Part shown: positions 1 to 13,243 of the stretch, in pieces
Layout of the letters: each line of letters begins with the position of its first letter
How positions within the stretch are numbered: the stretch's first letter is position 1
Source of the DNA: Paracoccaceae bacterium
Lineage (GTDB): Bacteria > Pseudomonadota > Alphaproteobacteria > Rhodobacterales > Rhodobacteraceae
Direction of reading: 5' to 3'
NCBI GenBank assembly: GCA_902631295.1
Contig: CACOXV010000012.1
Coordinates: forward strand, 1 to 52,634
DNA length: 52,634 nt
Made by a program: the position numbers and the translations under genes
The notes under the pieces: generated by a model
Database searches by the model: none
What the model saw: only the letters and a program-made list of their open reading frames with translations
What the model was told of the DNA's origin: nothing

Positions 1-1073
1 GGGTTGTGGAGAGGTGCGCCTTTACGATCCCACTCATGGCAGCCCCTCAGTGGCATAATGAATGCTGATTTTCTAGTGGCGTAAGAAAGTCGTTTTGTAT
101 GAGCTTTGGCTACGTCTTTGCGCTCATCGTCTGATAGGACGATCGAAGACAAAAGCCGATTATGAGCATGTACTTCGTGATCTTTCCAGCGTACATCCAA
201 ATCTCGCCATCCAGGAAAATCTACTAGGTCGTAACAGCCAGGGGCCACTATCTGTGGCACGCCGGCCTTTGCTGCTGCCGTTAACCGGTTTGGCCCGGCG
301 GAAACTACTGAGCCAAAAAGATGATTACCAACCTCTTGGGTGGCTAGGTCCATTACACATACGAAACGCCCCTTTGCAGCTAGGTCTTCAAATGCCTGTC
401 CACCCATTCCCGTAGGATGAAAGACTGCTACTTCATAGCCACGCATTTCCAAGGCTGGTTTCAGTGTGACCATATATTGAAGGACGGTTTTTCCAAACGA
501 CGTCATCCCCACCATCGGTTTTTTAATGTCTGGTTTTACTACCGCTTTTGCTGCTCCCAAAATGGCCCCCGCAGCTTGGCTGAGCGATGCTTTGCAAATG
601 CTGTTTAATCCATATAGGCCGCCTGCCCAAAGGATCATTTGTACATCGGCTGGGATACGCTCAGTTGGCAACAGCGGTGAGAATGCGATTGTCGAGATAA
701 TATATTTTGGGAAACCCAGCGGCAGCGCAAGACAGACATCCAGTGCCAGATCCGTTCCCATTGATCCGCCCAGAATAACAACACCATCAATTTGTCTTTC
801 AGTATAGGCTTGTATCGCCAGTTGGCAGGCACCAAGAGCCATTGTTTGCATAGCTTTGTTTTCATCATCCAGAGCGATGGTTTTTGTTATGTTACTATCT
901 GCAGCGGCGGCCACATCGTGTTTTGAAAAATCAGTGAATTCAATTGGGTCGTTGAGTATGCTTACATCCATGGTGACGGTAGCACCGCCCTGGTCTTTGA
1001 TAATATGCTCTAAGTAACGAAGTTCGTCTTCTTTGGTGTCGTATGTACCAATGATAAGGATTTTCTTTTTCAT
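1..1073 (-). CDS. UPF0261 / Tm-1-like ATP-binding protein (3' end beyond window)
   Basis: The frame is open from an ATG at 1073 to the left edge, 357 codons without a stop, so the C-terminus lies outside the window; family members are about 400 residues. The N-terminus begins MKKKILIIGTYDTKEDELRY, the nucleotide-binding start typical of UPF0261, and a glycine-rich VILGGSMGTDLAL segment follows near residue 100. The family includes the N-terminal domain of tomato Tm-1. Its bacterial reaction is not established. Its ATG overlaps the stop of the upstream metallo-hydrolase by 4 bases, so the two are translationally coupled. In other genomes such genes are often followed by a TIM-barrel protein annotated as phosphoenolpyruvate hydrolase family, which would fall past the edge. 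The family call is firm and the function unknown. Confidence 0.88.
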   Translation of the reverse strand, partial: MKKKILIIGTYDTKEDELRYLEHIIKDQGGATVTMDVSILNDPIEFTDFSKHDVAAAADSNITKTIALDDENKAMQTMALGACQLAIQAYTERQIDGVVILGGSMGTDLALDVCLALPLGFPKYIISTIAFSPLLPTERIPADVQMILWAGGLYGLNSICKASLSQAAGAILGAAKAVVKPDIKKPMVGMTSFGKTVLQYMVTLKPALEMRGYEVAVFHPTGMGGQAFEDLAAKGRFVCVMDLATQEVGNHLFGSVVSAGPNRLTAAAKAGVPQIVAPGCYDLVDFPGWRDLDVRWKDHEVHAHNRLLSSIVLSDDERKDVAKAHTKRLSYATRKSAFIMPLRGCHEWDRKGAPLHN

Positions 1074-1939
1074 CCTCTAGTCCCTTTCGTTAGTAAAATT
1101 CGCATCCCGTCTTTTCCTACGGTCACTGGTCCGTCCCATTCTGATGCAATGGCTTCTTGCCAGTCTACATCTGTAAATTTTGGGTCATCGGCAGGCACTA
1201 GGTGATTCAGAACAAGTTGCTTCACATTGGCAGCTGCAGCGATGCGGCCAACGTCTTCTGCCATGGTGTGGCTTGCGATTAAATTTGCTCTTAGCCCTGG
1301 TGCACCAGCCATACGCGCTACCAAAGCGTCGATCCCTTCGCTAAGCATTGCTTCATGTATCAAAAGATCGGCGTGCTTGGCAAACTCAGCCAATGGTTCA
1401 AAATAGCAAGTGTCAGCCGAAAAAATGACTGTTTGTGATCCTGTCTTGAACCGCAATGCAAAGCAGTCCTTTACTGGTGGATGATCTACACGCAGCGCAC
1501 TTACCGTAATATCGGCGAAAGAGGTTACATTTCCTTCACCATACTCATGCACCTTTACAAGTTGATCTAGGGGTTTTCGTTTGTCGTCTACAGTTCGTAT
1601 ATTATGGTCAAAACTCATAGATTTGAGGAAATATTGCCAATAATTGAGCAATCCTGGTGGTCCATAAAGTGGCAAGCTTCTTGGAGGCCCGGATGTCCAA
1701 GCTGTATAGATCAGTGGCCCGAGATCAAGAAGGTGATCTGAATGTAAATGAGTAATGACAATTGCGTCCAGATCAGACAGGGCTATATCCGCTTCGACCA
1801 AAGCTCGCGTTGCACCAATTCCACAATCTATAAGGATCGTTTGGCCATCCATTTGTAATACCGATGATGAGGGAGAAGGACTGCCTTTGCGCAATGACGG
1901 GCCACCCTTAGTTCCCAATAATGTGACGGCGTTGATCAC
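1070..1939 (-). CDS. MBL-fold metallo-hydrolase (RNase Z / lactonase-like)
   Basis: A 289-residue metallo-beta-lactamase-fold protein. The metal motif HLHSDH sits at residues 64-69 (H64, H66, D68, H69). Further probable ligands are H153, D176 (in FSADT), H224 (in SHTMAEDVG) and H246 (in LNHLVP), an arrangement like RNase Z and related phosphodiesterase or lactonase-type hydrolases. No signal peptide is visible, so it is probably cytoplasmic with two metal ions. The ATG overlaps the stop of the aminotransferase gene by 4 bases, and its own stop overlaps the next gene by 4, placing it mid-operon. The substrate is unknown. In this setting it may open a lactone or cyclic intermediate, but that is inference. 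Confidence 0.88.
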   Translation of the reverse strand: MINAVTLLGTKGGPSLRKGSPSPSSSVLQMDGQTILIDCGIGATRALVEADIALSDLDAIVITHLHSDHLLDLGPLIYTAWTSGPPRSLPLYGPPGLLNYWQYFLKSMSFDHNIRTVDDKRKPLDQLVKVHEYGEGNVTSFADITVSALRVDHPPVKDCFALRFKTGSQTVIFSADTCYFEPLAEFAKHADLLIHEAMLSEGIDALVARMAGAPGLRANLIASHTMAEDVGRIAAAANVKQLVLNHLVPADDPKFTDVDWQEAIASEWDGPVTVGKDGMRILLTKGTRG

Positions 1940-3294
1940 AGTGGGTTGGCCGCCATAGCCGCGTCAATTGCATCAATAATAGCTGCGGTTTCTTTTTCAG
2001 ATATAACTAGAGGTGGCGATAATATGACATTAGGTCCCGAAACACGTACCATCACCCCGTTTTGATAGATCGATTTGTAGATTGCGTTGACTTTGTCCTT
2101 TTTAGGAGCCGCTTTGGTCGTTCGGTCAGATGTAAGTTCCAATGCTGTCATTAAACCGTGCCCACCACGCACATCGCCAATGATTTCATATTTTTCGACT
2201 AATTTCTTAACTCCCTCAAAGATCTGTTTGCCACGTGATGCTGCGTTTTTATTCACTTCTAAACGTACTGTTTCTTTTACACATGCTATGGCTGCGGCAG
2301 CGCCTACTGGGTGTCCAGAGTAGGTGTAGCCAGATCCAATTGCAGCTTTTCCAGTAGTATCTTCCTCAAACACCTCAGCGATCTTTTGGTTTAACATAAC
2401 AGCGCCAAACGGAAAATAGCCGTTAGTAATCGCCTTGGCTGTACACATCATATCAGACTGCACCCCCCAAAGACGTGATCCAGACCAAGCACCAGTACGG
2501 CCATAAGCGGTAATGACTTCATCGGCGATCAATAAAATTCCATATTTGTCACAGATGTTCCGTATTGCAGGCATGAAACTCTCGTGGGGTGGTATTACTC
2601 CGCCTGCACCCAGGATAGGTTCCATAATAAATGCAGCAATAGTACCTGCGCCTTGAAATGCAATCTCATCTTCGAATGCGGCTATGCAATGTCCTGCTAG
2701 CTTTTCAGGGTCAGTTTCATTGAAAGGATTTCGATAAGGATATGGTGCGGGGATGTGGTAACAACCCGGCATCAAAGGTTCGTATTGCATCCGAAAGTTT
2801 GAGTTGCCGTTTACTGAGGCACAACTCGTGTGAGTGCCATGATAGCCTTTCTTAAGGCTAATATATTTTACGCGGCTGCTTTCTCCTCGAAGTTTATGAT
2901 ATTGCCGGGCCAATCGTAACGCGATTTCGACGCTGTCTGACCCACCGGACGTAAAAAAGGAGCGTACCATGCCATCGGGTGCAAAGAAATCTCGCAACAT
3001 TTCGCTCAACTCAATCGCTTTATCATTTGTGGTGCCGCGAAACGTTGAATAGAAGGGTAATTCACTGAGTTGTTCTGTGATTGCATTTTTCACTACTTCA
3101 CAAGAATATCCAAGGTTGACATTCCATAATCCGCCTACGGCATCAATCATGGATGAGCCATCAGCATCGCGGATCGTACAGCCCTCACCTGCGGTAATAA
3201 TGGCAGGAGGATTAGCTTGCATTTCTGCGGGATGTGCCATCGGGTGCCATAGATGCTTGGCGTTGTGTGCGGATAGATAATTAGAATCTTTCAT
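1936..3294 (-). CDS. class III (omega-amino) PLP aminotransferase
   Basis: A 452-residue fold-type-I aminotransferase of the class III group that uses omega-amines or omega-amino acids with pyruvate or 2-oxoglutarate. Visible elements are the phosphate-binding SGGSDS near residue 116, YHGTHTSCAS near 151, the cofactor Asp D258 in IADEV, and the Schiff-base lysine K287 in TAKAITNGYFPFGA. Length is normal and the ATG at 3294 is supported. It lies 3 bases after the IclR stop and overlaps the hydrolase start by 4 bases. Together with the decarboxylase and aldehyde dehydrogenases on the other arm, it could convert an arylethylamine to its aldehyde; this is inference. Beta-alanine, taurine or another omega-amine is equally possible from sequence alone. 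Confidence 0.92.
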   Translation of the reverse strand: MKDSNYLSAHNAKHLWHPMAHPAEMQANPPAIITAGEGCTIRDADGSSMIDAVGGLWNVNLGYSCEVVKNAITEQLSELPFYSTFRGTTNDKAIELSEMLRDFFAPDGMVRSFFTSGGSDSVEIALRLARQYHKLRGESSRVKYISLKKGYHGTHTSCASVNGNSNFRMQYEPLMPGCYHIPAPYPYRNPFNETDPEKLAGHCIAAFEDEIAFQGAGTIAAFIMEPILGAGGVIPPHESFMPAIRNICDKYGILLIADEVITAYGRTGAWSGSRLWGVQSDMMCTAKAITNGYFPFGAVMLNQKIAEVFEEDTTGKAAIGSGYTYSGHPVGAAAAIACVKETVRLEVNKNAASRGKQIFEGVKKLVEKYEIIGDVRGGHGLMTALELTSDRTTKAAPKKDKVNAIYKSIYQNGVMVRVSGPNVILSPPLVISEKETAAIIDAIDAAMAANPL

Positions 3295-3297
3295 CGG

Positions 3298-4089
3298 CTA
3301 TACCTCCAGTTTTGTTGCCCAAGCCTTAGCAACATTTGTGGGGATTTGGCCTCCCAAGTCCCTGCAAAGCTCAGTGCTGGCTGTAATCAGTTTTGTGATC
3401 ATGGTCTCATGAAAAGTTTCATTTATACGTGACACCGGGATAGCGATAGCAAGAGTGCCAATGGCGTCTCCTTTGACTCCAAAAAATGGAACTGCTACCG
3501 AACTGACTTCGTCTTCATATGATTGATCTGTAAAGGCAAAACCGCAGGCACGTATTGTCTCTAAATTGGCTTGTATATCTATAGCATTAGTTGGAGTGCT
3601 ATCAGTAAAACTGACCAATTTTTTTGATAAGATTTTACCTACAAAGGTATCATCATGGAAAGCTAACAAGGCAAGTCCTGATGAGGTAGCATGAAATGGT
3701 AGAATTTCTGCCTCATCAAAGTTAACACGAACTTTATGATTGCCTCCGTCTTTGGCATAAATCGCCGACATACCATTTTTTTGTGGCAACGCGGCGTGGA
3801 CTAGTTCGTGGATGTCATTGGCAATTCTGTCCACATAATACTTTACAGTTTTAACAATTGGCACTGTATTTTCTCGCACAGCAGCTAGTCGGATTACCGC
3901 TGGACCAAGACGGTACGCTTTTGTCAAATAGTTTTGTTCGAGGAACCCACTGTTCTTAAGTGCAGTCAGATGTCTGTGCAAGGTTCCTTTGTCGATACTA
4001 GTTCGTTTTTTGAACTCGGTTAGTCCAATTTCAGGACGATTGCTGGAGAAATGTTCTAACAGCGTGAGTGCCTTCTCGATTGTTGACAT
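3298..4089 (-). CDS. IclR-family transcriptional regulator
   Basis: A 263-residue regulator starting MSTIEKALTLLEHFSSNRPE, with a winged helix-turn-helix around residues 18-60 (GLTEFKKRTSIDKGTLHRHL) and a C-terminal effector-binding domain containing the typical VAVPFFGVKGDAIGTLAIAI segment. The ATG at 4089 is chosen over a longer TTG start because it matches family N-termini and is preceded by AGAGG about 11 bases upstream. IclR proteins commonly control aromatic-compound catabolism and bind palindromes in divergent promoters. Such a palindrome lies between this gene and the aldehyde dehydrogenase. It heads the minus-strand aminotransferase/hydrolase/UPF0261 operon and probably regulates both arms. 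Confidence 0.92.
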   Translation of the reverse strand: MSTIEKALTLLEHFSSNRPEIGLTEFKKRTSIDKGTLHRHLTALKNSGFLEQNYLTKAYRLGPAVIRLAAVRENTVPIVKTVKYYVDRIANDIHELVHAALPQKNGMSAIYAKDGGNHKVRVNFDEAEILPFHATSSGLALLAFHDDTFVGKILSKKLVSFTDSTPTNAIDIQANLETIRACGFAFTDQSYEDEVSSVAVPFFGVKGDAIGTLAIAIPVSRINETFHETMITKLITASTELCRDLGGQIPTNVAKAWATKLEV

Positions 4090-4114
4090 TTTTGTAGTAC
4101 CTCTGCCCTTACAC

Positions 4115-4143
4115 TTGACAGCCAAAAAATCATTCGTCAATAT
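4115..4143 (+). promoter_or_regulatory. candidate sigma-70 promoter for the aldehyde dehydrogenase arm
   Basis: TTGACA at 4115-4120 is a consensus -35 box. A 17-base spacer leads to CAATAT at 4138-4143, which matches three of the six -10 positions. It lies in the divergent region between the IclR gene and the plus-strand aldehyde dehydrogenase, with an inverted repeat just downstream. The -35 is strong and the -10 weak, so the call is tentative. Confidence 0.4.
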
Positions 4144-4159
4144 CAAATAGTACTCCACC

Positions 4160-4176
4160 GGTTCATTATTTGAACC
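4160..4176. promoter_or_regulatory. 17-bp inverted repeat, candidate IclR operator
   Basis: GGTTCA (4160-4165), spacer TTATT, then TGAACC (4171-4176) form a perfect 6-bp inverted repeat with an AT-only centre. It sits 21 bases before the preferred ATG of the aldehyde dehydrogenase and just downstream of the candidate promoter, a repressor-like position. IclR-family proteins bind palindromes of about this size in divergent regions. Assignment to the neighbouring regulator is inference from position. Confidence 0.6.
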
Positions 4177-4196
4177 AAAGTCTGTTGGGAGGCAGA

Positions 4197-5669
4197 ATGC
4201 GACAGGAGGATTTAGACGTGCTCCGGGCAATGCCTGTTGCAACGCCTACTATGATAATAAATGGTAAACCTTTAATGGCAAAGACTGGCGCTACTTTGAA
4301 CGTAGTTTCGCCAATCGATGGCACTTTACTGACGAAGATACCTGATGCGAGTGAGGCCGACGTAAACGTTGCAATAACATCTGCGCGACGCAGCTTTGAT
4401 TCTGGTGCTTGGTCACGTACTCAACCCATACTGCGTAAAAAAATTATGCTAGCGTGGGCTGACCTGATCGACAAACATGCGATTGAGCTTGCAGTGCTTG
4501 GTGTTCGTGACAACGGCACCGAAATTTCGATGGCTTACAAGGCAGAACCTATGTCTGCAGCCAATACGATCCGTTATTATGCAGAGTCAATTGACAAAAT
4601 TTATGGTGAAGTTGCCCCGACTGACCCATCCACACTGGCGATGATTTTAAAAGAACCTATTGGTGTTGTCGGTGCAATCGTGCCGTGGAACTTCCCACTT
4701 ATGATCTCCGCGTGGAAGATCGCGCCAGCATTGGCCATGGGAAATTCTTTTGTTCTTAAACCCTCTGAGGTGGCGTCCTTGTCTGTCTTGCGAATGGTGG
4801 CTTTAGCACATGAAGCCGGCTTGCCCGACGGTGTACTGAATGTCGTAACTGGAGCCGGGCCAGTATCAGGGCGCGCACTCGCAATGTCGATGGATGTTGA
4901 TGCTTTGGCATTTACTGGTTCGGGCCTTGTTGGTCGAACACTTTTGGAAGCCGCCGCCAACTCTAATCTGAAACGTGTATTCCTGGAGCTGGGCGGTAAA
5001 TCTCCTCATATTGTTTTTGATGATGCACATGACCTAGATTCTGCTGCTCAAGCAGTGGTTATGGGAATTTTTCGTAACTCTGGTCAGGTTTGCATAGCTG
5101 GATCTAGGCTATTGGTGCAGCACACTATTCACGACGCTTTTGTGGAGAAAATTGTCAATCTGACTGAAAAAATGAAAGTGGGTGATCCATTAGATTTACA
5201 AACTCAAATTGGCGCAATCAGTTCAGAAGCCCATTTGCGGCGTATTCAAAATGCACTTCATGGTGTAGATTCAATCGCTTCCGGTGGTTTTCAGATTCTT
5301 TCTGAGACTGGAGGCTACTACATGGCCCCAACGATTGTTACCGACATGGGTGTGGATGATAGGCTTGTGCGTGAGGAGGTATTTGGACCAGTCTTAACAG
5401 TGAGTCGCTTTAAAGATGAGTTGGATGCGGTAACCCAAGCAAATGCGTCAGAGCTTGGTTTAGCTGCTGGTGTCTGGACATCAGACTTGGGGCGAGCGCA
5501 TCGGATGGTAGCCAAAATCAATAGCGGTGTTGTTCATGTTAACACCTATGGCGGCGCTGATAATACCGTGCCGTTAGGAGGTTATAAGCAATCTGGTAAT
5601 GGTTATGATAAATCTCTGCACGCGATTGAAAAGTTTATTAACAATAAAACTGCATGGATTAAGCTATGA
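4197..5669 (+). CDS. NAD(P)-dependent aldehyde dehydrogenase
   Basis: A 490-residue ALDH-superfamily enzyme oxidising an aldehyde to a carboxylate with NAD(P). Numbered from the ATG at 4197: PWNFPL with N165, general base E264 in LELGGKSP, and nucleophile C299 in GQVCIAG. The ATG at 4197 is preferred to the upstream TTG at 4170 because GGGAGG lies 4 bases before it. The gene is transcribed divergently from the IclR operon across a region with a palindrome. Its closest relatives by eye are betaine-, phenylacetaldehyde- or gamma-glutamyl-type ALDHs. Here it would be well placed to oxidise an arylacetaldehyde to the substrate of the hpa genes. The substrate is inference; the family is certain. 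Confidence 0.93.
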   Translation: MRQEDLDVLRAMPVATPTMIINGKPLMAKTGATLNVVSPIDGTLLTKIPDASEADVNVAITSARRSFDSGAWSRTQPILRKKIMLAWADLIDKHAIELAVLGVRDNGTEISMAYKAEPMSAANTIRYYAESIDKIYGEVAPTDPSTLAMILKEPIGVVGAIVPWNFPLMISAWKIAPALAMGNSFVLKPSEVASLSVLRMVALAHEAGLPDGVLNVVTGAGPVSGRALAMSMDVDALAFTGSGLVGRTLLEAAANSNLKRVFLELGGKSPHIVFDDAHDLDSAAQAVVMGIFRNSGQVCIAGSRLLVQHTIHDAFVEKIVNLTEKMKVGDPLDLQTQIGAISSEAHLRRIQNALHGVDSIASGGFQILSETGGYYMAPTIVTDMGVDDRLVREEVFGPVLTVSRFKDELDAVTQANASELGLAAGVWTSDLGRAHRMVAKINSGVVHVNTYGGADNTVPLGGYKQSGNGYDKSLHAIEKFINNKTAWIKL

Positions 5670-5922
5670 TTGAAACGTTTAAGAATAATTTAAATCTTGT
5701 GGTTTTCGAAGACTAACTCATTCTGGAGAAACTGGCACGTTCCATGAAGTTTAAATAAACCCATGCTGGCCTGAAATAATAAAATAAAATATGTACAGCA
5801 ATCGGTGAAGCTTATCGCGGAACTTTTTATTAAAAGTGGGATGAATTTAATCGCCGTAGTGGTTAAGGTGATGATGAAGTACGTGCTTTTTATTTACCAT
5901 TTATTAAAAGGAAGTGCATTAA
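5670..5922. other. 253-bp intergenic region upstream of the hpa operon
   Basis: No gene is supported here. It contains an inverted repeat at 5822-5837 (ACTTTT, TATT, AAAAGT) and AT-rich stretches that could hold a promoter for the following flavoprotein gene. AAAAGGAAG near 5906-5914 is the ribosome-binding site of that gene. I found no convincing -35/-10 pair and no terminator for the upstream aldehyde dehydrogenase. Confidence 0.4.
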
Positions 5923-7137
5923 ATGAGTTCTGTTATTGTTATTGGTGCAGGTCAGGCGGCAGCCTCTTTTTGTGCAAAATTTAGGACTTTGGACCACAGA
6001 ACACCATTGACCATATACGGGGACGAGCCCGAAATCCCGTATCAGAGGCCGCCCCTGTCTAAGAAATATGCAACAGGTGATATGGCTAGGTCGCAGCTCT
6101 ACTTACGCCCTGAAGCCTGGTACGTTGATCAGAATATTGAACTCAATACTAGCGTGAAGGTGACATGTATCGATCGAGCTAAACGTGAAGTACATCTGTC
6201 CGATGGCACAACTGCACAATGGTCCAAGCTTATGATTGCCACTGGGTCTAAAGTGCGTGAATTGCCAAACTCTGTAACCAATAATTTGTCTGGTTTACAC
6301 TATATCCGCACCTTAGAGGATGCTAACAAATTTGGCGATGTATTAAGAAAGGGACGTCGTATTGTAATTATTGGTGGAGGTTATATCGGGCTTGAAGCTG
6401 CAGCAGTATGCGCACAGAAGGGTATGAAAGTGACCTTGGTTGAGGCAGGCTTACGCATACTGCAGCGTGTGGCTTGTAGGGAAACCTCTGAATGGTTCAA
6501 ACGACTACATTCAGAGGAAGGGGTCGATATAAAAGAAGGTGTTGGCCTATCTCATTTTGAGGGGCAAGGCGGAAAGCTGACCCGAGCGGTTCTTAATGAC
6601 AAATCCGTAATAGATGCAGAGGTTGCTGTGGTTGGAATTGGTATTTTGCCTAGCACTGAGTTGGCTGAAGAGTGTGGGCTAGCAGTTGAAAATGGAATTA
6701 TTGTGAATGGGGTCTGTCAGACGAACGATCTAGATATTTATGCGGCGGGCGATTGTGCAGTAAGTGATTACAAAGGCATTTTAACAAGGTTAGAATCGGT
6801 GCCAAACGCAATTGATCAAGCTACAATTGCAGGTACACATGCAGCCACAGGAGCAGCGCCCAATTACGTCGCAAAACCTTGGTTTTGGTCAGACCAATTT
6901 GATGTAAAGCTGCAAATTGCGGGTCTTAATCGTGGTTATACTTCTGTAGTTACAAGGGCTGGGAAAACGTCCAGATCAATAGCTCATTTTTATTATAACG
7001 GTGAAAAGCTCTTGGCCATCGATGCTATGAACGCACCTAGTGTTTACATGATCGGAAAAAGATTGCTCGAGGCGGGGAAAACAATACTACCAGAACATGC
7101 TGCAGATGTTGACTTTAATCTAAAGTCGTTGATGTAA
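5923..7137 (+). CDS. FAD-dependent ferredoxin/rubredoxin reductase-like oxidoreductase
   Basis: A 404-residue flavoprotein of the oxygenase-coupled reductase type (rhodocoxin, putidaredoxin or ferredoxin reductase). It has an N-terminal FAD fold (VIVIGAGQAAASF, residues 4-16), the RPPLSKKY segment near 42-49, a second nucleotide-binding fold for NAD(P)H (IIGGGYIGLEAAA, 149-161) and the FAD-binding IYAAGDCA near residue 280. Such reductases pass electrons from NAD(P)H to a ferredoxin serving a Rieske oxygenase or P450, neither of which is in the window. Start: ATG at 5923 with AAGGAAG upstream. It is followed after 68 bases by hpaF, so it probably leads the hpa operon. It may supply a ring hydroxylase encoded elsewhere (inference). 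Confidence 0.88.
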   Translation: MSSVIVIGAGQAAASFCAKFRTLDHRTPLTIYGDEPEIPYQRPPLSKKYATGDMARSQLYLRPEAWYVDQNIELNTSVKVTCIDRAKREVHLSDGTTAQWSKLMIATGSKVRELPNSVTNNLSGLHYIRTLEDANKFGDVLRKGRRIVIIGGGYIGLEAAAVCAQKGMKVTLVEAGLRILQRVACRETSEWFKRLHSEEGVDIKEGVGLSHFEGQGGKLTRAVLNDKSVIDAEVAVVGIGILPSTELAEECGLAVENGIIVNGVCQTNDLDIYAAGDCAVSDYKGILTRLESVPNAIDQATIAGTHAATGAAPNYVAKPWFWSDQFDVKLQIAGLNRGYTSVVTRAGKTSRSIAHFYYNGEKLLAIDAMNAPSVYMIGKRLLEAGKTILPEHAADVDFNLKSLM

Positions 7138-7205
7138 AATGATATGTTTGCAAGTTCAATATAGATTTCTTAAATTGAGAACAATCAACGCTTTAAGGGT
7201 ATGTG

Positions 7206-7595
7206 ATGCCGCACTTCCAAATTGAGTATTCTGCTAACATTGAAGATGTAGTGGATATAAGTGCTTTGTGTGATAATATTCGAACATCAGCGGCCAAGGT
7301 CCAAGCATTCCCGATAGCAGGTATTCGGGTGCGCGCAGTTCGAGTGGAGCATTTCGCAATAGCCGATGGCAATCCAAAACATGGGTTTATTGACCTCAGC
7401 ATTCGTTTGCGCGAGGGGCGACCTGATAATGTGAAGCTTGATGCTCTAAATGTGATTTTTTCTGCCCTTAAAAACTTTACGGCTAATGCTATGGAAACCA
7501 GGTCCATTGCTCTATCAGCAGAGATGCGCGACATTGATAATGTTCTCTCTGCTAAATTTGGTAACATCCGCGATCATATTAAGGATAGCTCATGA
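7206..7595 (+). CDS. hpaF: 5-carboxymethyl-2-hydroxymuconate delta-isomerase
   Basis: A 129-residue protein of the tautomerase-superfamily isomerase that acts after semialdehyde oxidation in homoprotocatechuate meta-cleavage. The ATG at 7206 gives MPHFQIEYSANIED; the proline after Met becomes the N-terminal catalytic Pro once Met is removed, which decides this start over the GTG 3 bases upstream. AAGGG lies about 6 bases before. Length matches the family (about 125-130). The stop overlaps the hpaE ATG by 4 bases. The C-terminal region LSAEMRDIDNVLSAKFGNIR is typical of the family. The call is firm from sequence and neighbours together. Confidence 0.9.
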   Translation: MPHFQIEYSANIEDVVDISALCDNIRTSAAKVQAFPIAGIRVRAVRVEHFAIADGNPKHGFIDLSIRLREGRPDNVKLDALNVIFSALKNFTANAMETRSIALSAEMRDIDNVLSAKFGNIRDHIKDSS

Positions 7596-9103
7596 GCGCG
7601 CTAGAAGAAAATATCGGAAAACTTGATGGTCACCTCAAAAAATTTCGTGAAGTAGGTATCCTGAATTGTATTGCGGGAGTTGATGTGACTGGATCGCAGG
7701 GTACTTTCCAGACTACTTCGCCAGTCGACAGGTCAATCATCTGCAATGTAGCCCACGGCTCAAAAGAAGACATTGATCGCGCTGCGAATGCTGCACAAGA
7801 GGCATTTTCTGTTTGGCGAGAAATGCCTGCGCTGGAACGTAAGGAGGTCTTGATCCGAATTGCAGATGGGATTGAAGCACGTGCCGAAGAAATAGCTTTA
7901 TGTGAATGTTGGGATACTGGGCAGGCCTACAAATTCATGTCGAAGGCTGCTTTGCGCGGGGCTGAAAATTTTCGTTACTTCGCAGACCAAGTCGTTCAAG
8001 CCCGCGATGGTCAACACTTGAAATCACCAACTTTAATGAATGTTACAACGCGTGTGCCAATCGGCCCGGTGGGTATCATCACGCCGTGGAACACTCCTTT
8101 CATGCTATCCACTTGGAAAATTGCACCTGCTCTGGCAGCTGGTTGTACAGTGGTGCACAAACCCGCTGAAGCATCACCCATCACAGCGCGTTTATTAGTT
8201 GAAATTGCGCATGATGCCGGTTTGCCCGCTGGTGTCTTGAATACCGTAAATGGATTTGGCGAGGTTGCAGGAAAAGCCCTATGTCAAAATCCTAAAATTA
8301 AGGCGATTGCATTTGTTGGAGAAAGCCAAACGGGTAGTCTTATTATCAAGCAAGGAGCCGATACTCTTAAACGCAATCACCTGGAACTTGGTGGTAAAAA
8401 TCCAGTTATTGTTTTTGATGATGCGGATTTAGATCGTGCATTGGATGCTGCAATTTTTATGATTTATTCAATCAATGGGGAGAGATGTACGTCTTCGTCT
8501 CGTCTGTTGGTACAAGATACGATTCGTGATAATTTCGAGGCCAAGTTAATTGATCGAGTCAACAACATCCAAGTTGGGCATCCGCTGGATCCCAAGACAG
8601 AAATTGGACCTCTTGTGAGTGAAGAACACTATAGAAAAGTAACAAGTTATTTTGATATTGCCAAGGCAGATGGTGCAACCATCGCTGCTGGTGGAGAGGT
8701 TATGGAAAGCGAAGGTTATTTTGTTCGTCCAACCTTGTTTACAGAAGCAAATACTAAAATGCGTATTGCTCAGGAAGAAATCTTTGGTCCTGTCCTCACA
8801 TCAATTTCGTTTTCGAGCGAAGAAGAGGCGTTAGAAATAGCAAATGATACTGACTACGGCTTAACAGGTTATGTTTGGACCAATGATCTAACCCGTGCCC
8901 TGCGTTTTACGGAAAAACTGGAGGCCGGGATGATTTGGGTGAACTCGGAAAATGTACGCCATCTTCCAACTCCGTTCGGTGGTGTAAAAGCCAGTGGTAT
9001 CGGCCGCGATGGCGGGGATTGGTCGTTTGAATTCTATATGGAGCAGAAACACATTGGATTTGCGACTGGTCGGCACAAAATTACGAAACTAGGAGCGCTC
9101 TAA
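7592..9103 (+). CDS. hpaE: 5-carboxymethyl-2-hydroxymuconate semialdehyde dehydrogenase
   Basis: A 503-residue ALDH that oxidises the ring-cleavage product of homoprotocatechuate to 5-carboxymethyl-2-hydroxymuconate with NAD. It shows PWNTPF near 165-170, general base E265 in LELGGKNP and nucleophile C299 in the SINGERCTSSSR context that is characteristic of HpaE. Its length is typical. It is coupled to hpaF by a 4-base overlap and abuts hpaD with no gap. Flanking genes for the isomerase and dioxygenase make the substrate assignment stronger than for the other two aldehyde dehydrogenases in the window. Confidence 0.92.
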   Translation: MSALEENIGKLDGHLKKFREVGILNCIAGVDVTGSQGTFQTTSPVDRSIICNVAHGSKEDIDRAANAAQEAFSVWREMPALERKEVLIRIADGIEARAEEIALCECWDTGQAYKFMSKAALRGAENFRYFADQVVQARDGQHLKSPTLMNVTTRVPIGPVGIITPWNTPFMLSTWKIAPALAAGCTVVHKPAEASPITARLLVEIAHDAGLPAGVLNTVNGFGEVAGKALCQNPKIKAIAFVGESQTGSLIIKQGADTLKRNHLELGGKNPVIVFDDADLDRALDAAIFMIYSINGERCTSSSRLLVQDTIRDNFEAKLIDRVNNIQVGHPLDPKTEIGPLVSEEHYRKVTSYFDIAKADGATIAAGGEVMESEGYFVRPTLFTEANTKMRIAQEEIFGPVLTSISFSSEEEALEIANDTDYGLTGYVWTNDLTRALRFTEKLEAGMIWVNSENVRHLPTPFGGVKASGIGRDGGDWSFEFYMEQKHIGFATGRHKITKLGAL

Positions 9104-10087
9104 ATGTCTGTACCCGCCCCTAACCTTTATCCTGACTTTAACATTATCCGCCTGAGCCATGTGTGTCTGAACGTAAAAGACCTCGTTGAATCATGTAAGT
9201 TTTATACAGAACTTCTTGGTCTTCAGGTTACTGATAAAAGCGACACTCATATATACTTGCGGGCGATGGAAGAACGCGGGCATCATTGCGTGATTCTGCA
9301 AAAATCTGATCAACCAGGCACTGTTGAGGTGATGGGCTTTAAGACCTTTGATGAAGATGACCTTGATCGTGCTGAAGAATATTTTGATAGTAAAGGTCGT
9401 CCTACATCATGGGTGAACAGACCATTTCAAGGCAGAACACTTCTGACTTCTGATAACATGGGTATCCCAATTGAATTTTACCACAAAATGGAACGTTTGG
9501 CGCCAATCCATCAAAAATATGAGCTTTATCGTGGTGTCAAATCACTGCGAATAGATCACTTTAATTGCTTTAGCCATGACGTAGATGCTTCCGTTAAATT
9601 TTATTCTGACTTTGGCTTTAGAGTTACAGAATACACAGTAGACGAAGAAAGCGAAAAGCTATGGGCGGCATGGATGCATCGCAAAGGAGGTGTTCATGAC
9701 ATGGCTTTCACCAATGGTATGGGCCCGCGCATGCATCATGTGGCCTTCTGGGTGCCAACGCCTCTGAATATAATAGATTTACTCGATCTAATGGCGACAA
9801 CTGGCTACGTTGAAAATATCGAGCGTGGACCTGGACGGCATGGGATTTCTAATGCGTTCTTCTTATATATACTGGACCCAGACGGTCATAGAATTGAAAT
9901 TTATTGTTCTGATTATCAAACGGTTGATCCTGATTTAGAGCCAATAAAATGGGACTTTAAGGATCCACAGCGTCAAACCTTGTGGGGAGCAGCAGCCCCT
10001 GAAAGTTGGTTCAAGCATGGTACCACATTTGTTGGTGTAGACACCCACAATTCTAAAATCACAGCAAGCCCGATTATCGCACCATGA
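9104..10087 (+). CDS. hpaD: homoprotocatechuate (3,4-dihydroxyphenylacetate) 2,3-dioxygenase
   Basis: A 327-residue extradiol ring-cleavage dioxygenase with two vicinal-oxygen-chelate repeats, the type found in Brevibacterium and Arthrobacter homoprotocatechuate dioxygenases. Metal ligands are readable in the second repeat: H152 (RIDHFNC), H212 (RMHHVAFW) and E265 (HRIEIY). Second-sphere residues H198 (GGVHDM), R241 and H246 (ERGPGRHG) and Y255 fall at a constant offset of two from the numbering known for the Brevibacterium enzyme, which supports the same fold and substrate. The ATG directly follows the hpaE stop. The window does not show whether it uses Fe(II) or Mn(II). Confidence 0.93.
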   Translation: MSVPAPNLYPDFNIIRLSHVCLNVKDLVESCKFYTELLGLQVTDKSDTHIYLRAMEERGHHCVILQKSDQPGTVEVMGFKTFDEDDLDRAEEYFDSKGRPTSWVNRPFQGRTLLTSDNMGIPIEFYHKMERLAPIHQKYELYRGVKSLRIDHFNCFSHDVDASVKFYSDFGFRVTEYTVDEESEKLWAAWMHRKGGVHDMAFTNGMGPRMHHVAFWVPTPLNIIDLLDLMATTGYVENIERGPGRHGISNAFFLYILDPDGHRIEIYCSDYQTVDPDLEPIKWDFKDPQRQTLWGAAAPESWFKHGTTFVGVDTHNSKITASPIIAP

Positions 10088-10197
10088 TTTTTAAGCTAAC
10101 AGAACGTGATCTTTTGAGCAAAGTGATTTGGCACTTGTTATGTAAAGTCATGGAAATACGCTATTCTTTCTCAACCTGCAGTGAGGAAAAATAGAAA

Positions 10198-11595
10198 GTG
10201 GATTGGGATGAATTCTCTGAGTGGAGCAAATGGATCGCAGAATGGGGTTCGCAGTATCATAAGACGCTGCGCGACAGGCCGGTTCGGGCAAAAACTAAGC
10301 CTGGTGAGATTTATGCTCAATTACCAGACAGTCCACCCCAGATGCCGGAGGACATGGGAAAAATACTGGGTGATTTTGAGAATATTGTGATGCCCGGAAT
10401 AACCCATTGGCAGCATCCCTGTTTTTTTGCCTATTTCCCCGCAAATGCCGCCCCACCATCCATGCTGGCAGAGCAGCTAGTTAATATGGTTGCGGCACAG
10501 TGCATGCTTTGGCAGACTTCGCCCGCTGCGACGGAAGTTGAGGGCAAGATGGTGGATTGGATGCGTCAGGCTCTTGGCCTAGCTGATGAATTTACTGGTG
10601 TTATACAAGATAGTGCATCCTCCGCGACCCTTTCGGCTGTACTTACCATGCGAGAAAAGGCAACTGGCTATACTGGCAACCGCGATGGTTTGGCAGGTAA
10701 GGGGTCTCTCCGGATTTACTGCTCTGACCAGGTGCATTCGTCTATTGATCGTGCCTGTTGGGTTGCGGGTATTGGGCAGAATAATTTGAAAAAAATTCCA
10801 GGAATTGGGCCAAGATTTGGAATGGATACAAAAGAATTAGAATTAGTAATCCGCGCCGACATCGCAGAAGGCCACACACCAGCTGGCATAATAGCTATAA
10901 CAGGTGGTACTGGTGTAGGTGCATCCGATGATTTAAAAGCGATCGCAGAGATCGCCAAAATTCATGATCTTTACACACATCTTGATGCTGCATGGGCGGG
11001 ATCTGCTATGATATGTCCTGAATACCGCGACTCATTATGGAATGGAGTTAATGCCTACGACAGCATAGTTTTCAATCCACACAAGTGGCTTGGCGCCCAA
11101 TTTGACTGTTCAATCCAATTTTTGAAGGATGCCACACCACAGTTGAACACTCTGAAGATTGAACCTGAGTACTTGAAAACGACCGGTGACGCCGTTACCA
11201 ATTATTCAGAATGGACTATTCCACTAGGGCGCAGGTTTCGCGCCTTGAAACTTTGGTTCTTGATCCGGTCTTACGGTTTAGTGGGTCTTCAAATGCGCAT
11301 CCGAAATCACGTTTTGTGGGCTGAAGAATTATGTTCGAAGATCCGGTTGCTAGAAGGGTTCCAGATCACGACTGATCCAATCTTAAGTTTATTTTCTTTT
11401 CGATGTCCTGGGGATGATATGGCTCAACAGCGCTTGGTAGACGCAATTAATGATGATGGTCGTATCTATCTTACTCAAGGCGCTTTTGCAGACCAAAAAA
11501 TAATCCGTGTACAGGTAGGCCAATTTGATACAACACGTGAAGATGTTATGTCCGTAGCTACGGTTGTTTCAGAGGTTTGGGAGGCTATAAAATGA
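10198..11595 (+). CDS. aromatic-L-amino-acid decarboxylase (group II PLP)
   Basis: A 465-residue group II PLP decarboxylase of the DOPA/tyrosine/tryptophan/phenylalanine type. Evidence: substrate-pocket segment THWQHPCFFAYFPAN (69-83), H180 in SDQVHSSID stacking on the cofactor, D263 in HLDAAWAG, Schiff-base lysine K296 in NPHKWLG, and the flexible-loop tyrosine Y325 in EPEYLK. His at 180 and Tyr at 325 are the residues seen in true decarboxylases rather than aldehyde synthases. The start is GTG at 10198 with GAGGAAAA about 9 bases upstream. Its stop overlaps the hpaG-like ATG by 4 bases, so it is an integral part of the hpa operon. It probably makes dopamine or tyramine from the amino acid; the exact substrate is inference. 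Confidence 0.92.
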   Translation: MDWDEFSEWSKWIAEWGSQYHKTLRDRPVRAKTKPGEIYAQLPDSPPQMPEDMGKILGDFENIVMPGITHWQHPCFFAYFPANAAPPSMLAEQLVNMVAAQCMLWQTSPAATEVEGKMVDWMRQALGLADEFTGVIQDSASSATLSAVLTMREKATGYTGNRDGLAGKGSLRIYCSDQVHSSIDRACWVAGIGQNNLKKIPGIGPRFGMDTKELELVIRADIAEGHTPAGIIAITGGTGVGASDDLKAIAEIAKIHDLYTHLDAAWAGSAMICPEYRDSLWNGVNAYDSIVFNPHKWLGAQFDCSIQFLKDATPQLNTLKIEPEYLKTTGDAVTNYSEWTIPLGRRFRALKLWFLIRSYGLVGLQMRIRNHVLWAEELCSKIRLLEGFQITTDPILSLFSFRCPGDDMAQQRLVDAINDDGRIYLTQGAFADQKIIRVQVGQFDTTREDVMSVATVVSEVWEAIK

Positions 11596-12446
11596 GATTT
11601 GCTAGCTTCACACATGGTGGTGATAAATATTATGGAGCTATTACGGATGAAGGGGTGGTCGCACTTAATGATGACTTTCCACAATGGCCTACACTGCTTG
11701 ATGCCGTTAAGGCAGATGGCTTAAAAGATCTAGCTAAAGCAATTATTGGTAAAGTTGTTACCCATACGGAATTTCAATATCAAATGGTTCTCCCAAATGC
11801 GCGTCGAATTTTGTGCGTAGGAATAAATTTCCCGGACCGCAATGCAGAATATAAAGATGGGTCTGAGCAGCCGAAATATATGTCTCTTTTCCCACGGTTT
11901 GCATCTGGTTTTACAGGTCATAAGTGTCCCTTGATCCGTCCACCTGAAAGCAAAAAATTGGACTATGAAGGTGAAGTAGCAATTGTGATTGGTAAAGGCG
12001 GACGTCGCATTTCGCAAGCAGATGCCTATGAACATATATCGGCTTTAACACTATGCAACGAAGGCACAATTCGTGACTGGGTCCGTCATGCGAAGTTTAA
12101 TGTCACGCAAGGTAAAAACTGGGATAAATCTGGAGCAATGGGTCCTTGGATAGTGCCGTTTACCCATGACTCACAAATTGATAATGCTCGGATAATCACG
12201 CGTGTTAACGGTGAGGTTCGTCAGGATGATATGCTTAGTAATATGGTTTTTCCGGTTCGGCGTGAGATTGAGTATATCTCTACTTTCATGACATTAGAAC
12301 CCGGTGACATCATCGTTACTGGGACACCAACGGGGTCTGGCGCGCGACTTGATCCGCCAAAATATCTCAAGCCTGGGGATGTGATAGAGGTCGAGGTGAG
12401 TGGTATCGGAGTCTTGTGCAATACTGTAGAGGATGAAAAGATATGA
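11592..12446 (+). CDS. hpaG: fumarylacetoacetate-hydrolase-family protein, HpaG-like decarboxylase/isomerase
   Basis: A 284-residue single-domain FAH-family protein. Metal-site residues are E126 and E128 (YEGEVAIVIG) and the LCNEGTIRDW segment (153-163); GPWIVP (184-189) and VTGTPTGSG near the C-terminus are family hallmarks. In the homoprotocatechuate pathway HpaG decarboxylates and isomerises oxopent-3-ene-tricarboxylate to 2-oxohept-3-ene-dioate. Enteric HpaG is about 430 residues with two FAH domains, while only one is encoded here. The ATG at 11592 is chosen because it overlaps the decarboxylase stop by 4 bases; the longer TTG start is not needed. It is coupled to hpaH by another 4-base overlap. 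The symbol rests on context. Confidence 0.82.
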   Translation: MRFASFTHGGDKYYGAITDEGVVALNDDFPQWPTLLDAVKADGLKDLAKAIIGKVVTHTEFQYQMVLPNARRILCVGINFPDRNAEYKDGSEQPKYMSLFPRFASGFTGHKCPLIRPPESKKLDYEGEVAIVIGKGGRRISQADAYEHISALTLCNEGTIRDWVRHAKFNVTQGKNWDKSGAMGPWIVPFTHDSQIDNARIITRVNGEVRQDDMLSNMVFPVRREIEYISTFMTLEPGDIIVTGTPTGSGARLDPPKYLKPGDVIEVEVSGIGVLCNTVEDEKI

Positions 12447-13243
12447 CCCCAGATGACCATATAAATGCTGCTGCTGATCTGTTGAACGCTGAGGAAAAAC
12501 GCGAGCAAATCAACCTGTTAACGAAACGCTATCCTGAGATGAGCATGGACGATGCTTACGCCGTTCAAAGTGCAATTTATCGCGCCAAGCTTGAGCAAGG
12601 TCGCAGTGTGGTTGGTTGGAAGATCGGGTTAACATCTAAGGCTATGCAATACGCTTTAGATATCAATATTCCCGATAGTGGGATTTTATTCGATGATATG
12701 GTTTTTGCTAACGGGGCTATTGTACCAAAGGAACGGTTCATAAAACCAAGGATAGAGGCAGAAATTGCGTTCGTTATGAAATCTGCGGTGGGCGGTGAAG
12801 GTGTGACCCGTGAGGATGTAATCGAAGCGACAGACTATGTAGCACCATCCCTTGAAATTCTTGATACCCGAATCTTGCGCGTTGATCCTGAGACTAATGC
12901 CAAGCGTAAGATATTTGATACAATAAGTGACAACGCTGCTAATGCTGGCATTGTTCTTGGCTCAGAACGCCATGCAGCTGATGGGATTGATTTGCGTTGG
13001 GTAGGAGTGATCGCGTCAAGTAATGGGGAGGTTGAAGAAACTGGATTAGGTGCTGGAGTACTAAATGATCCTATTGAAAGTGTTGTCTGGTTAGCCCGGC
13101 GAATGACAAAATATAAACAAACTATCCAACCTGGTCAAACTGTCCTATCTGGCAGTTTTATTCGTCCAATTGAATGCCCATCTGGAACAGCTATCCACGC
13201 TGATTTTGGCTCGTTTGGGTCTGTGGACATTTCGTTTGCGTGA
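12443..13243 (+). CDS. hpaH: 2-oxo-hepta-3-ene-1,7-dioate hydratase
   Basis: A 266-residue member of the 2-keto-4-pentenoate hydratase family, which adds water to 2-oxohept-3-ene-1,7-dioate. Conserved features: K60 in GWKIGLTSKAMQ, metal-binding glutamates E105 and E107 (RIEAEIAF) and E138 (SLEILDTR), and a C-terminal VLSGSFIRP segment. Length is normal for HpaH (about 265). The ATG overlaps the preceding stop by 4 bases. It is the last gene of the operon. The aldolase HpaI, which would complete the route to pyruvate and succinic semialdehyde, is not in the window. A 95-bp gap without a clear terminator separates it from a convergent glycosidase gene. Confidence 0.9.
   Translation: MTPDDHINAAADLLNAEEKREQINLLTKRYPEMSMDDAYAVQSAIYRAKLEQGRSVVGWKIGLTSKAMQYALDINIPDSGILFDDMVFANGAIVPKERFIKPRIEAEIAFVMKSAVGGEGVTREDVIEATDYVAPSLEILDTRILRVDPETNAKRKIFDTISDNAANAGIVLGSERHAADGIDLRWVGVIASSNGEVEETGLGAGVLNDPIESVVWLARRMTKYKQTIQPGQTVLSGSFIRPIECPSGTAIHADFGSFGSVDISFA

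Follow-up and report, generated by a model that had tools for sequence, protein, structure and literature searches.

We found that a gene for an aromatic-amino-acid-decarboxylase-like PLP enzyme (AADC) belongs to a homoprotocatechuate (hpa) operon, an assignment supported by neighbouring genes and a 4-base gene overlap that are kept over many genera. We put the chances at about even that the window, the 52,634-nucleotide stretch of DNA analysed here, holds a catabolic island that handles an aromatic amino acid with a dihydroxylated ring and the corresponding amine.

Profile searches with NCBIfam and Pfam recovered, each in its place, every gene that a preliminary description of this DNA had named. 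A single co-directional run at 4197–13243 comprises an aldehyde dehydrogenase (ALDH), a ferredoxin reductase, hpaF, hpaE, hpaD, AADC, hpaG and hpaH; diverging from it behind an IclR-family regulator are a class III aminotransferase, an MBL hydrolase and a UPF0261 gene:

3–1073, minus strand: UPF0261 (Tm-1-like) protein, PF06792 and PF23189 over cut-off, extending past the window edge
1070–1939, minus strand: MBL-fold metallo-hydrolase
1936–3294, minus strand: class III aminotransferase resembling omega transaminases, a candidate arylethylamine transaminase; PRK07481, 715 bits (cut-off 575)
3298–4089, minus strand: IclR-family regulator, ATG at 4089; nearest NCBIfam model PcaR/PcaU/PobR, below cut-off
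4197–5669, plus strand: PuuC-like ALDH, proposed arylacetaldehyde dehydrogenase; above the Pfam cut-off but below every NCBIfam equivalog
5798–5905, plus strand: decayed 3′ remnant of a glutamine-synthetase-like (GS; gamma-glutamyl-amine synthetase-like) gene, with two in-frame stops
5923–7137, plus strand: ferredoxin–NAD reductase, AndAa/HcaD type, below equivalog cut-offs
7203–7595, plus strand: hpaF, 5-carboxymethyl-2-hydroxymuconate isomerase; PF02962 (CHMI) over cut-off, NCBIfam PRK15031 below
7592–9103, plus strand: hpaE, CHMS dehydrogenase; TIGR02299, 760.7 bits (cut-off 638)
9104–10087, plus strand: hpaD, homoprotocatechuate 2,3-dioxygenase (VOC type); TIGR02295, 407.5 bits (cut-off 321)
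10198–11595, plus strand: AADC; 309 bits to PF00282, below all NCBIfam cut-offs
11592–12446, plus strand: hpaG, single-domain isomerase/decarboxylase of the Pfam FAA family
12443–13243, plus strand: hpaH, 2-oxo-hept-4-ene-1,7-dioate hydratase; TIGR02312, 369 bits (cut-off 351.5); PDB 2eb4

The ferredoxin reductase, the MBL hydrolase, the UPF0261 gene and the GS-like remnant had not been listed before.

Within the meta-cleavage pathway, HpaD, HpaE and HpaH exceeded NCBIfam cut-offs and HpaF exceeded that of Pfam; hpaG, a single gene with one FAA domain, matched the second half of PDB 1gtt and scored under the TIGR02303 and TIGR02305 equivalog cut-offs. The ORF list contained no HpaI aldolase in the island, and the best HpaI match in the window's own genome (G000, a MAG that is 70% complete) reached only 39%.

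The coupling of AADC to hpaG by a 4-base overlap inside the hpa operon, claimed in the preliminary description, is real and conserved: hpaG is encoded from the overlap (ATGA) in 57 of the 59 hpa-context loci examined. The same description had taken the arrangement for something unusual, but it is not unique; among the nearest 80 AADC loci in named genomes, 57 have an hpa context, 54 carry AADC, hpaD (or LigB) and hpaG on the same strand within 5 kb, and 19 fall outside any hpa or homogentisate context by our own context rule. We also sampled 394 genomes of the family, nearly one per genus (121 HpaD-positive, 273 HpaD-negative); co-occurrence of AADC with hpa genes in genomes lacking hpaB had been proposed as something to look for. 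AADC tracked HpaD beyond chance expectation (105/121 HpaD-positive versus 80/273 HpaD-negative genomes), and HpaB was rare, but its rarity was not specific to AADC. Within the same genus, genome G546 is 96% complete and has neither HpaD nor AADC.

The best PDB match of the AADC is a DOPA decarboxylase (7xin, 346 bits), and the AADC of Phaeobacter porticola is 80% identical to it. In alignment the window protein keeps the equivalents of Lys303, His192, Tyr332 and Asp271; the PLP lysine, His192 and Tyr332 are held in common with 7xin, 3rbf and 1js3, DOPA or aromatic amino acid decarboxylases of the same family, and fit the PLP group II decarboxylase pattern of EC 4.1.1.28. We take the Tyr332 and His192 equivalents to be marks of true decarboxylases. 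The substrate pocket is different: the three aligned DOPA/tyrosine decarboxylases, at about 297–346 bits, depart from the hpa-context AADCs at positions 82, 101 and 103 (the last two in human DDC numbering), where T82 is replaced by Ala in 53 of 59 hpa-context proteins, and I101 and F103 by Gln and Met in all 59. Such a pocket could mean that the AADC uses another aromatic amino acid, for example meta-tyrosine or a tyrosine bearing a methoxy group or a halogen, with an intact P450 demethylating or hydroxylating the product, and related AADCs do adjoin homogentisate genes in loci L038 and L194. Gln101 and Met103 also occur, however, in 23/23 other named AADCs outside hpa contexts, so the pocket need not mirror the hpa substrate, and we regard this explanation as distinctly unlikely. 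Decarboxylation of OPET was considered separately and rejected on chemistry, because PLP decarboxylases require an amino acid substrate.

On the other side of the AADC step, the aminotransferase (best PDB match 5lh9, an omega transaminase) and the ALDH are candidate enzymes for a dopamine/tyramine catabolon that would be co-regulated with hpa. The proposal that the aminotransferase is a partner of the AADC–hpa arm agrees with its recurrence: of the 57 named AADC+hpa loci 20 carry it, compared with 10 of 78 hpaD loci without AADC (the two sets were sampled differently). UPF0261 homologues, recurrent neighbours of hpa/amine loci, are present in 21/57 AADC+hpa named loci and MBL hydrolase homologues in 6/57, in L090 again after the aminotransferase. 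At 20 of 57 the aminotransferase is not obligatory within 10 kb, and scanning each region singly revealed no inverted repeat in the IclR–ALDH promoter region and weak ones in other regions. Both observations would fit two arms that are mere neighbours, only AADC being tied to hpa and free amines being handled elsewhere. We consider this very improbable, as a module of aminotransferase, ALDH, IclR, Tct and UPF0261 recurs beside hpa in varying arrangements, in L043 with the aminotransferase immediately preceding AADC, both on one strand, and some named loci are truncated.

The preliminary description had seen no HpaBC hydroxylase and had reasoned that DOPA would make one unnecessary. Indeed, a profile search (PF03241) did not find HpaB in the 70% complete G000, nor was it found in G331, a 100% complete genome whose island matches Phaeobacter porticola plasmid NZ_CP016366.1 by match coordinates; both are among the 39 of 45 genomes with AADC beside hpaD from which HpaB is missing. 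HpaB is, however, present in only 22/121 HpaD-positive genomes and is about as rare without an adjacent AADC (16/76) as with one (6/45; Fisher p 0.34). Its absence is therefore a habit of the family, and we rejected it as proof of DOPA use.

A P450 tracks HpaD (39/79 HpaD-positive versus 5/80 HpaD-negative genomes tested), and was found in 27 of 45 genomes in which AADC adjoins hpaD versus 12 of the 34 other HpaD-positive genomes tested. In locus L176 the order is P450–GS–GS–reductase–hpaFED–AADC–hpaGH. This distribution is consistent with an AADC that converts tyrosine to tyramine, whose ring would be hydroxylated later by a non-HpaBC enzyme, either a P450 with its reductase, perhaps acting on a gamma-glutamyl amine, or a flavoprotein. 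A hydroxylase other than HpaB or P450 may operate in HpaD-positive genomes: a flavoprotein hydroxylase lies inside the hpa island of G331, and 29/79 HpaD-positive genomes (counted among HpaD-positive genomes only) encode one of the phenol-hydroxylase type. Yet HpaB and P450 are both missing from 16 of the 45 genomes with AADC next to hpaD, and whereas seven of these 16 (G331, G439, G583, G594, G626, G668 and G770) carry the flavoprotein, nine gave no match to it at E 1e-60. Nor is the P450 complementary to HpaB (9/16 HpaB-positive versus 30/63 HpaB-negative among the 79 HpaD-positive genomes tested), leaving a simple substitution of one for the other unsupported, and in the window's own genome P450 and GS are remnants. 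We hold the tyramine route to be possible but somewhat unlikely. When ORFs from 160 loci were clustered, P450 (13 loci) and an MhpA-like flavoprotein (5 loci) were among the 75 largest families, several of which are antisense ORFs; inspection by eye recognised no further conserved hydroxylase beside hpa in these 75.

The GS fragment in the window aligns with the GS of L238 across 37 columns at 59% identity, a match equalled by 0/500 mononucleotide shuffles, and it precedes the reductase as in L238, where a 76% identical reductase homologue comes after P450–GS; the L176 reductase, 49% identical, has the same order. A P450 remnant lies on contig C14 of the same genome beside an intact GATase. 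As judged from these alignments, the window reductase appears to be the orphan of a GATase–P450–GS–reductase unit that has decayed in this genome. Gene order in L176 and L238 is also why we favour a P450 over a Rieske oxygenase as its partner, even though reductase homologues occur in only 2/57 AADC+hpa and 1/78 hpaD-without-AADC mapped loci; the Rieske oxygenase was set aside, PF00848 being uninformative because it is present in 37 of 40 searched genomes (of 121 HpaD-positive). Ferredoxin matches in the window were not convincing (best E 0.055 and 0.058).

A broader and rather doubtful proposal is that the hpa pathway of this alphaproteobacterial family is normally fed by a gamma-glutamyl-protected P450 route that starts at aromatic amino acids and amines, not by HpaBC, the window being a catechol-only descendant. 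AADC would make the amine and a gamma-glutamyl ligase would protect it; hydroxylation or demethylation of the protected amine would fall to a class I P450 working with a ferredoxin reductase and a 2Fe-2S ferredoxin, and a glutamine-amidotransferase-like hydrolase would free the amine for the transaminase and ALDH to yield homoprotocatechuate; the window lineage would have lost P450 and ligase and retained the DOPA/dopamine branch.

In the window's own genome neither HpaB nor an intact P450 was found, and its substrates are most plausibly catechols (L-DOPA or dopamine), a reading that we rate at roughly even strength. AADC, coupled to HpaG through the overlapping genes, would convert L-DOPA to dopamine; the aminotransferase would yield 3,4-dihydroxyphenylacetaldehyde and the ALDH homoprotocatechuate, whose ring HpaD-E-F-G-H would open and then shorten, with IclR probably controlling both divergent arms. 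Ancestors probably carried the P450/gamma-glutamyl unit, which would have widened the substrate range; with P450 and GS now remnants, the reductase would be orphaned and the route confined to substrates already bearing a catechol. The DOPA-to-homoprotocatechuate scheme of the preliminary description thus survives in part: AADC sits in the hpa operon and the aminotransferase recurs, but the absence of HpaB is unspecific, P450 is common and the pocket is unlike that of DOPA decarboxylases.

The DOPA prediction is sharp in nine genomes with AADC beside hpaD (G000, G404, G437, G501, G533, G556, G696, G700 and G756), because HpaB, P450 and flavoprotein were not found there. More widely, hpa genes with AADC in many marine bacteria, mostly without HpaB, suggest that this route serves to feed on DOPA or on amino acids and amines related to it; possible DOPA sources are algal, mussel-adhesive or melanin-related. 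If so, a large marine bacterial group would have a dedicated HpaB-free route from aromatic amino acids or catecholamines to central metabolism, and the AADC/hpaG gene pair is a concrete marker to seek in metagenomes.

At the level of titles and abstract openings, we found no description of AADC within hpa operons. Dopamine entry to homoprotocatechuate is already known from Pseudomonas putida U, whose 3,4-dihydroxyphenylacetate catabolon, going by the title of Arcos et al. (2010), joins tyramine and dopamine entry in one catabolic unit; set beside that title, the entry route in the window includes an AADC embedded among the hpa genes as well as a class III aminotransferase, with no HpaBC found. 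The HpaD, E, F, G and H enzymes and steps are the same as in the hpa/hpc operons of Escherichia coli W/C and Acinetobacter baumannii TH, as described in PMC12718150. Unlike those operons, as given there, the window has no HpaBC found and an AADC between hpaD and hpaG, and its hpaG is one single-domain gene, in contrast to a two-domain protein in E. coli and two genes in A. baumannii TH.

The AADC gene lies inside a compact run of genes that is divided from a regulator by a short intergenic gap:

4197-13243, one strand: ALDH, ferredoxin reductase, hpaF, hpaE, hpaD, AADC, hpaG and hpaH, an unbroken co-directional run
ATG at 4089, divergent from ALDH with 107 bp between: IclR
beyond IclR, in this order: class III aminotransferase, MBL-fold hydrolase, UPF0261 gene

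Four-base overlaps occur at three joints, hpaF/hpaE, AADC/hpaG and hpaG/hpaH. The products of hpaE, hpaD and hpaH pass NCBIfam equivalog cut-offs and that of hpaF a Pfam cut-off; hpaG encodes a single FAA domain scoring under the HpaG cut-offs. The closest solved structures are 7xin, a DOPA decarboxylase (346 bits), for AADC and 5lh9, an omega-transaminase, for the aminotransferase. UPF0261 and MBL-fold hydrolase genes (3-1939 in the window) recur next to the aminotransferase/ALDH module in several genera.

With 30 query proteins we mapped the best 80 of 588 confirmed AADC stretches from named species genomes, a sample biased to close relatives because only the best were kept. By our own rule 57 of these 80 loci had an hpa context, and in 54 of the 80 both hpaG and either hpaD or LigB lay on the AADC strand, no more than 5 kb away; the rest comprised 19 elsewhere, three truncated and one near homogentisate genes. 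Adding the window and locus L036 of genome G331, and excluding L072-L074, gave 59 hpa-context loci, and in 57 of them hpaG is encoded by a frame opening at a 4-base overlap with the AADC stop, the exceptions being L182 and L209. Around hpaD genes lacking AADC, hpaG lies downstream on the same strand in 65 of 78 stretches, with a gap of under 300 bases in 53 of these 65. On a quick tree the window AADC falls in a starred, all-hpa group of five rows, and the hpa label requires 15 changes, against a shuffled mean of 28.9, with 40 of 92 inner branches unsupported. Two homoprotocatechuate dioxygenases, one VOC type and one LigB type (TIGR02298 over cut-off), adjoin in L036 (11989-13837); a LigB match occurs in 16 of the 57 AADC-hpa loci drawn from the best 80 of 588. 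The second G331 AADC (L037, 61% identity) adjoins an HpaI-like gene and a branched-chain-type ABC transporter, both named by eye.

Across 394 family genomes, about one per genus, HpaD was found in 121 and AADC in 185. AADC was present in 105/121 genomes with HpaD and 80/273 without (odds ratio 15.8; Fisher p 1.4e-27, nominal only since the genomes are related). Of the 121, 45 have AADC no more than 12 kb from hpaD and 42 have it in another place, while it was unplaced in 18 and not found in 16; no AADC appeared in 78 stretches around hpaD from the last three groups, of which L282, L312 and L315 are under 7 kb. The association of AADC with hpa is not chance.

The preliminary description leaned on the lack of an HpaBC hydroxylase. 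The absence is genuine, but it is not specific to this arrangement, since HpaB is rare in the family's hpa genomes with or without an adjacent AADC: PF03241 passes its cut-off in 40/394 genomes (two below it were dropped) and in 22 of the 121 with HpaD, namely 6/45 with adjacent AADC versus 16/76 others (p 0.34). Within mapped loci, HpaB occurs in 2 of the 57 AADC-hpa loci from the best 80 of 588 and 0 of the 78 hpaD loci without AADC; L096, outside both sets, carries it.

That description also overlooked a P450 system beside hpa:

L096 (genome G117; some names by eye): an upper module of the same kind (aminotransferase, IclR, ALDH, Tct transporter), then class I glutamine amidotransferase, P450, GS-like, UPF0261, MarR, HpaB and HpaC; hpaHGDE follows on the opposite strand
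L238 (genome G528): GATase-P450-GS-reductase, then hpaI-like and MarR genes, then hpaFED
L176: GATase-P450-GS-GS-reductase-hpaFED-AADC-hpaGH

The window reductase is 76% identical to that of L238 and 49% to that of L176; such a reductase is otherwise rare (2 of the 57 AADC-hpa loci from the best 80 of 588, 1 of 78 hpaD loci without AADC). L238 also holds a ferredoxin-like fragment, named by eye, with a 52% identical counterpart in L072. P450 was found in 39 of 79 HpaD genomes, the test covering three of the four groups (27/45 with adjacent AADC, 4/16 without AADC, 8/18 unplaced), and in 5 of 80 genomes lacking HpaD, taken first in handle order (5/40 with AADC, 0/40 without). In L072 (5124-14782), as in L073 and L074, a distant AADC (~40% identity) accompanies P450, a ferredoxin-reductase match, a LigB-like dioxygenase, an FAA protein and an HpaE-like ALDH (some named by eye); here AADC, P450 and meta-cleavage appear to have been combined separately.

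In the window's own genome this unit has decayed. The gap between ALDH and reductase retains the 3' remnant of a GS gene, which aligns over 37 columns at 59% identity with two stops and one gap, a match equalled by 0/500 mononucleotide shuffles. On another contig, C14, the GATase is intact, with 74% identity to its L238 counterpart, and after it comes a P450 remnant covering residues 2-159 in two frames with one stop, the remainder lacking a convincing match; no further P450 of this kind was found in the genome at E 1e-20 or 1e-70. With P450 and GS decayed, the window reductase seems to be the orphan left by an oxygenase system since lost, and may now serve another partner.

Tyr332 separates decarboxylases from aldehyde synthases. 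The window AADC retains the PLP lysine together with residues equivalent to His192 and Tyr332, and so is expected to act as a decarboxylase rather than an aldehyde synthase. For a genome without HpaB and P450, the simplest route would run from L-DOPA through dopamine and 3,4-dihydroxyphenylacetaldehyde to homoprotocatechuate; both are missing from 16/45 AADC-adjacent genomes, including the window's own and G331 (the former and G501 are under 80% complete). Against DOPA, the pocket has Gln at position 101 and Met at position 103 in 59/59 hpa-context AADCs and in 23/23 others (named loci from the best 80 of 588), where the alignment gives hydrophobic residues for the human, 7xin and 6eei enzymes. 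Also against it, a phenol-hydroxylase-type flavoprotein lies within the G331 island and, counting HpaD genomes alone, occurs in 29/79 and in 7/16 of those without HpaB and P450, and the window's own MAG is 70% complete. We regard DOPA or dopamine as the island's substrate as an evenly balanced proposition.

Phe replaces the catalytic-loop Tyr332 in homologues L208 and L209 (hpa context), in L218, L219, L226 and L227 (other or truncated context) and in L044-L047 and L051. This change is known from aldehyde synthases, and these homologues may make the aldehyde directly, with no transaminase. Elsewhere (L090, 11505-13717; also L260, L295 and L299) a second class III aminotransferase and an APH-type kinase accompany the hpa/amine module, a pair that we take to resemble kinase plus phospho-lyase pairs and whose substrates could be beta-hydroxylated amines, octopamine or noradrenaline for instance.

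The nearest named AADC loci suggest that the window's organism belongs to the Rhodobacteraceae sensu lato. The island can be plasmid-borne: by match coordinates the G331 copy corresponds to Phaeobacter porticola plasmid NZ_CP016366.1, and two Ruegeria plasmids carry an AADC of 75% identity, their annotation showing a fumarylacetoacetate-hydrolase-family gene where the match falls. Neither HpaD nor AADC was found in G546, a 96% complete genome of the window's genus, and thus the island is accessory.

Our literature search, with subscription papers mostly beyond reach, found no description of an AADC built into an hpa operon. In Pseudomonas putida U, by a title cited in PMC12718150, tyramine and dopamine are known to feed 3,4-dihydroxyphenylacetate catabolism as a single unit. 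One single-domain HpaG only is encoded in the window (11592-12446), and one hpaG match is likewise seen in many mapped hpa loci, AADC present or not; in Acinetobacter baumannii TH, by contrast, two FAA proteins carry out the tri-acid decarboxylation (PMC12718150).
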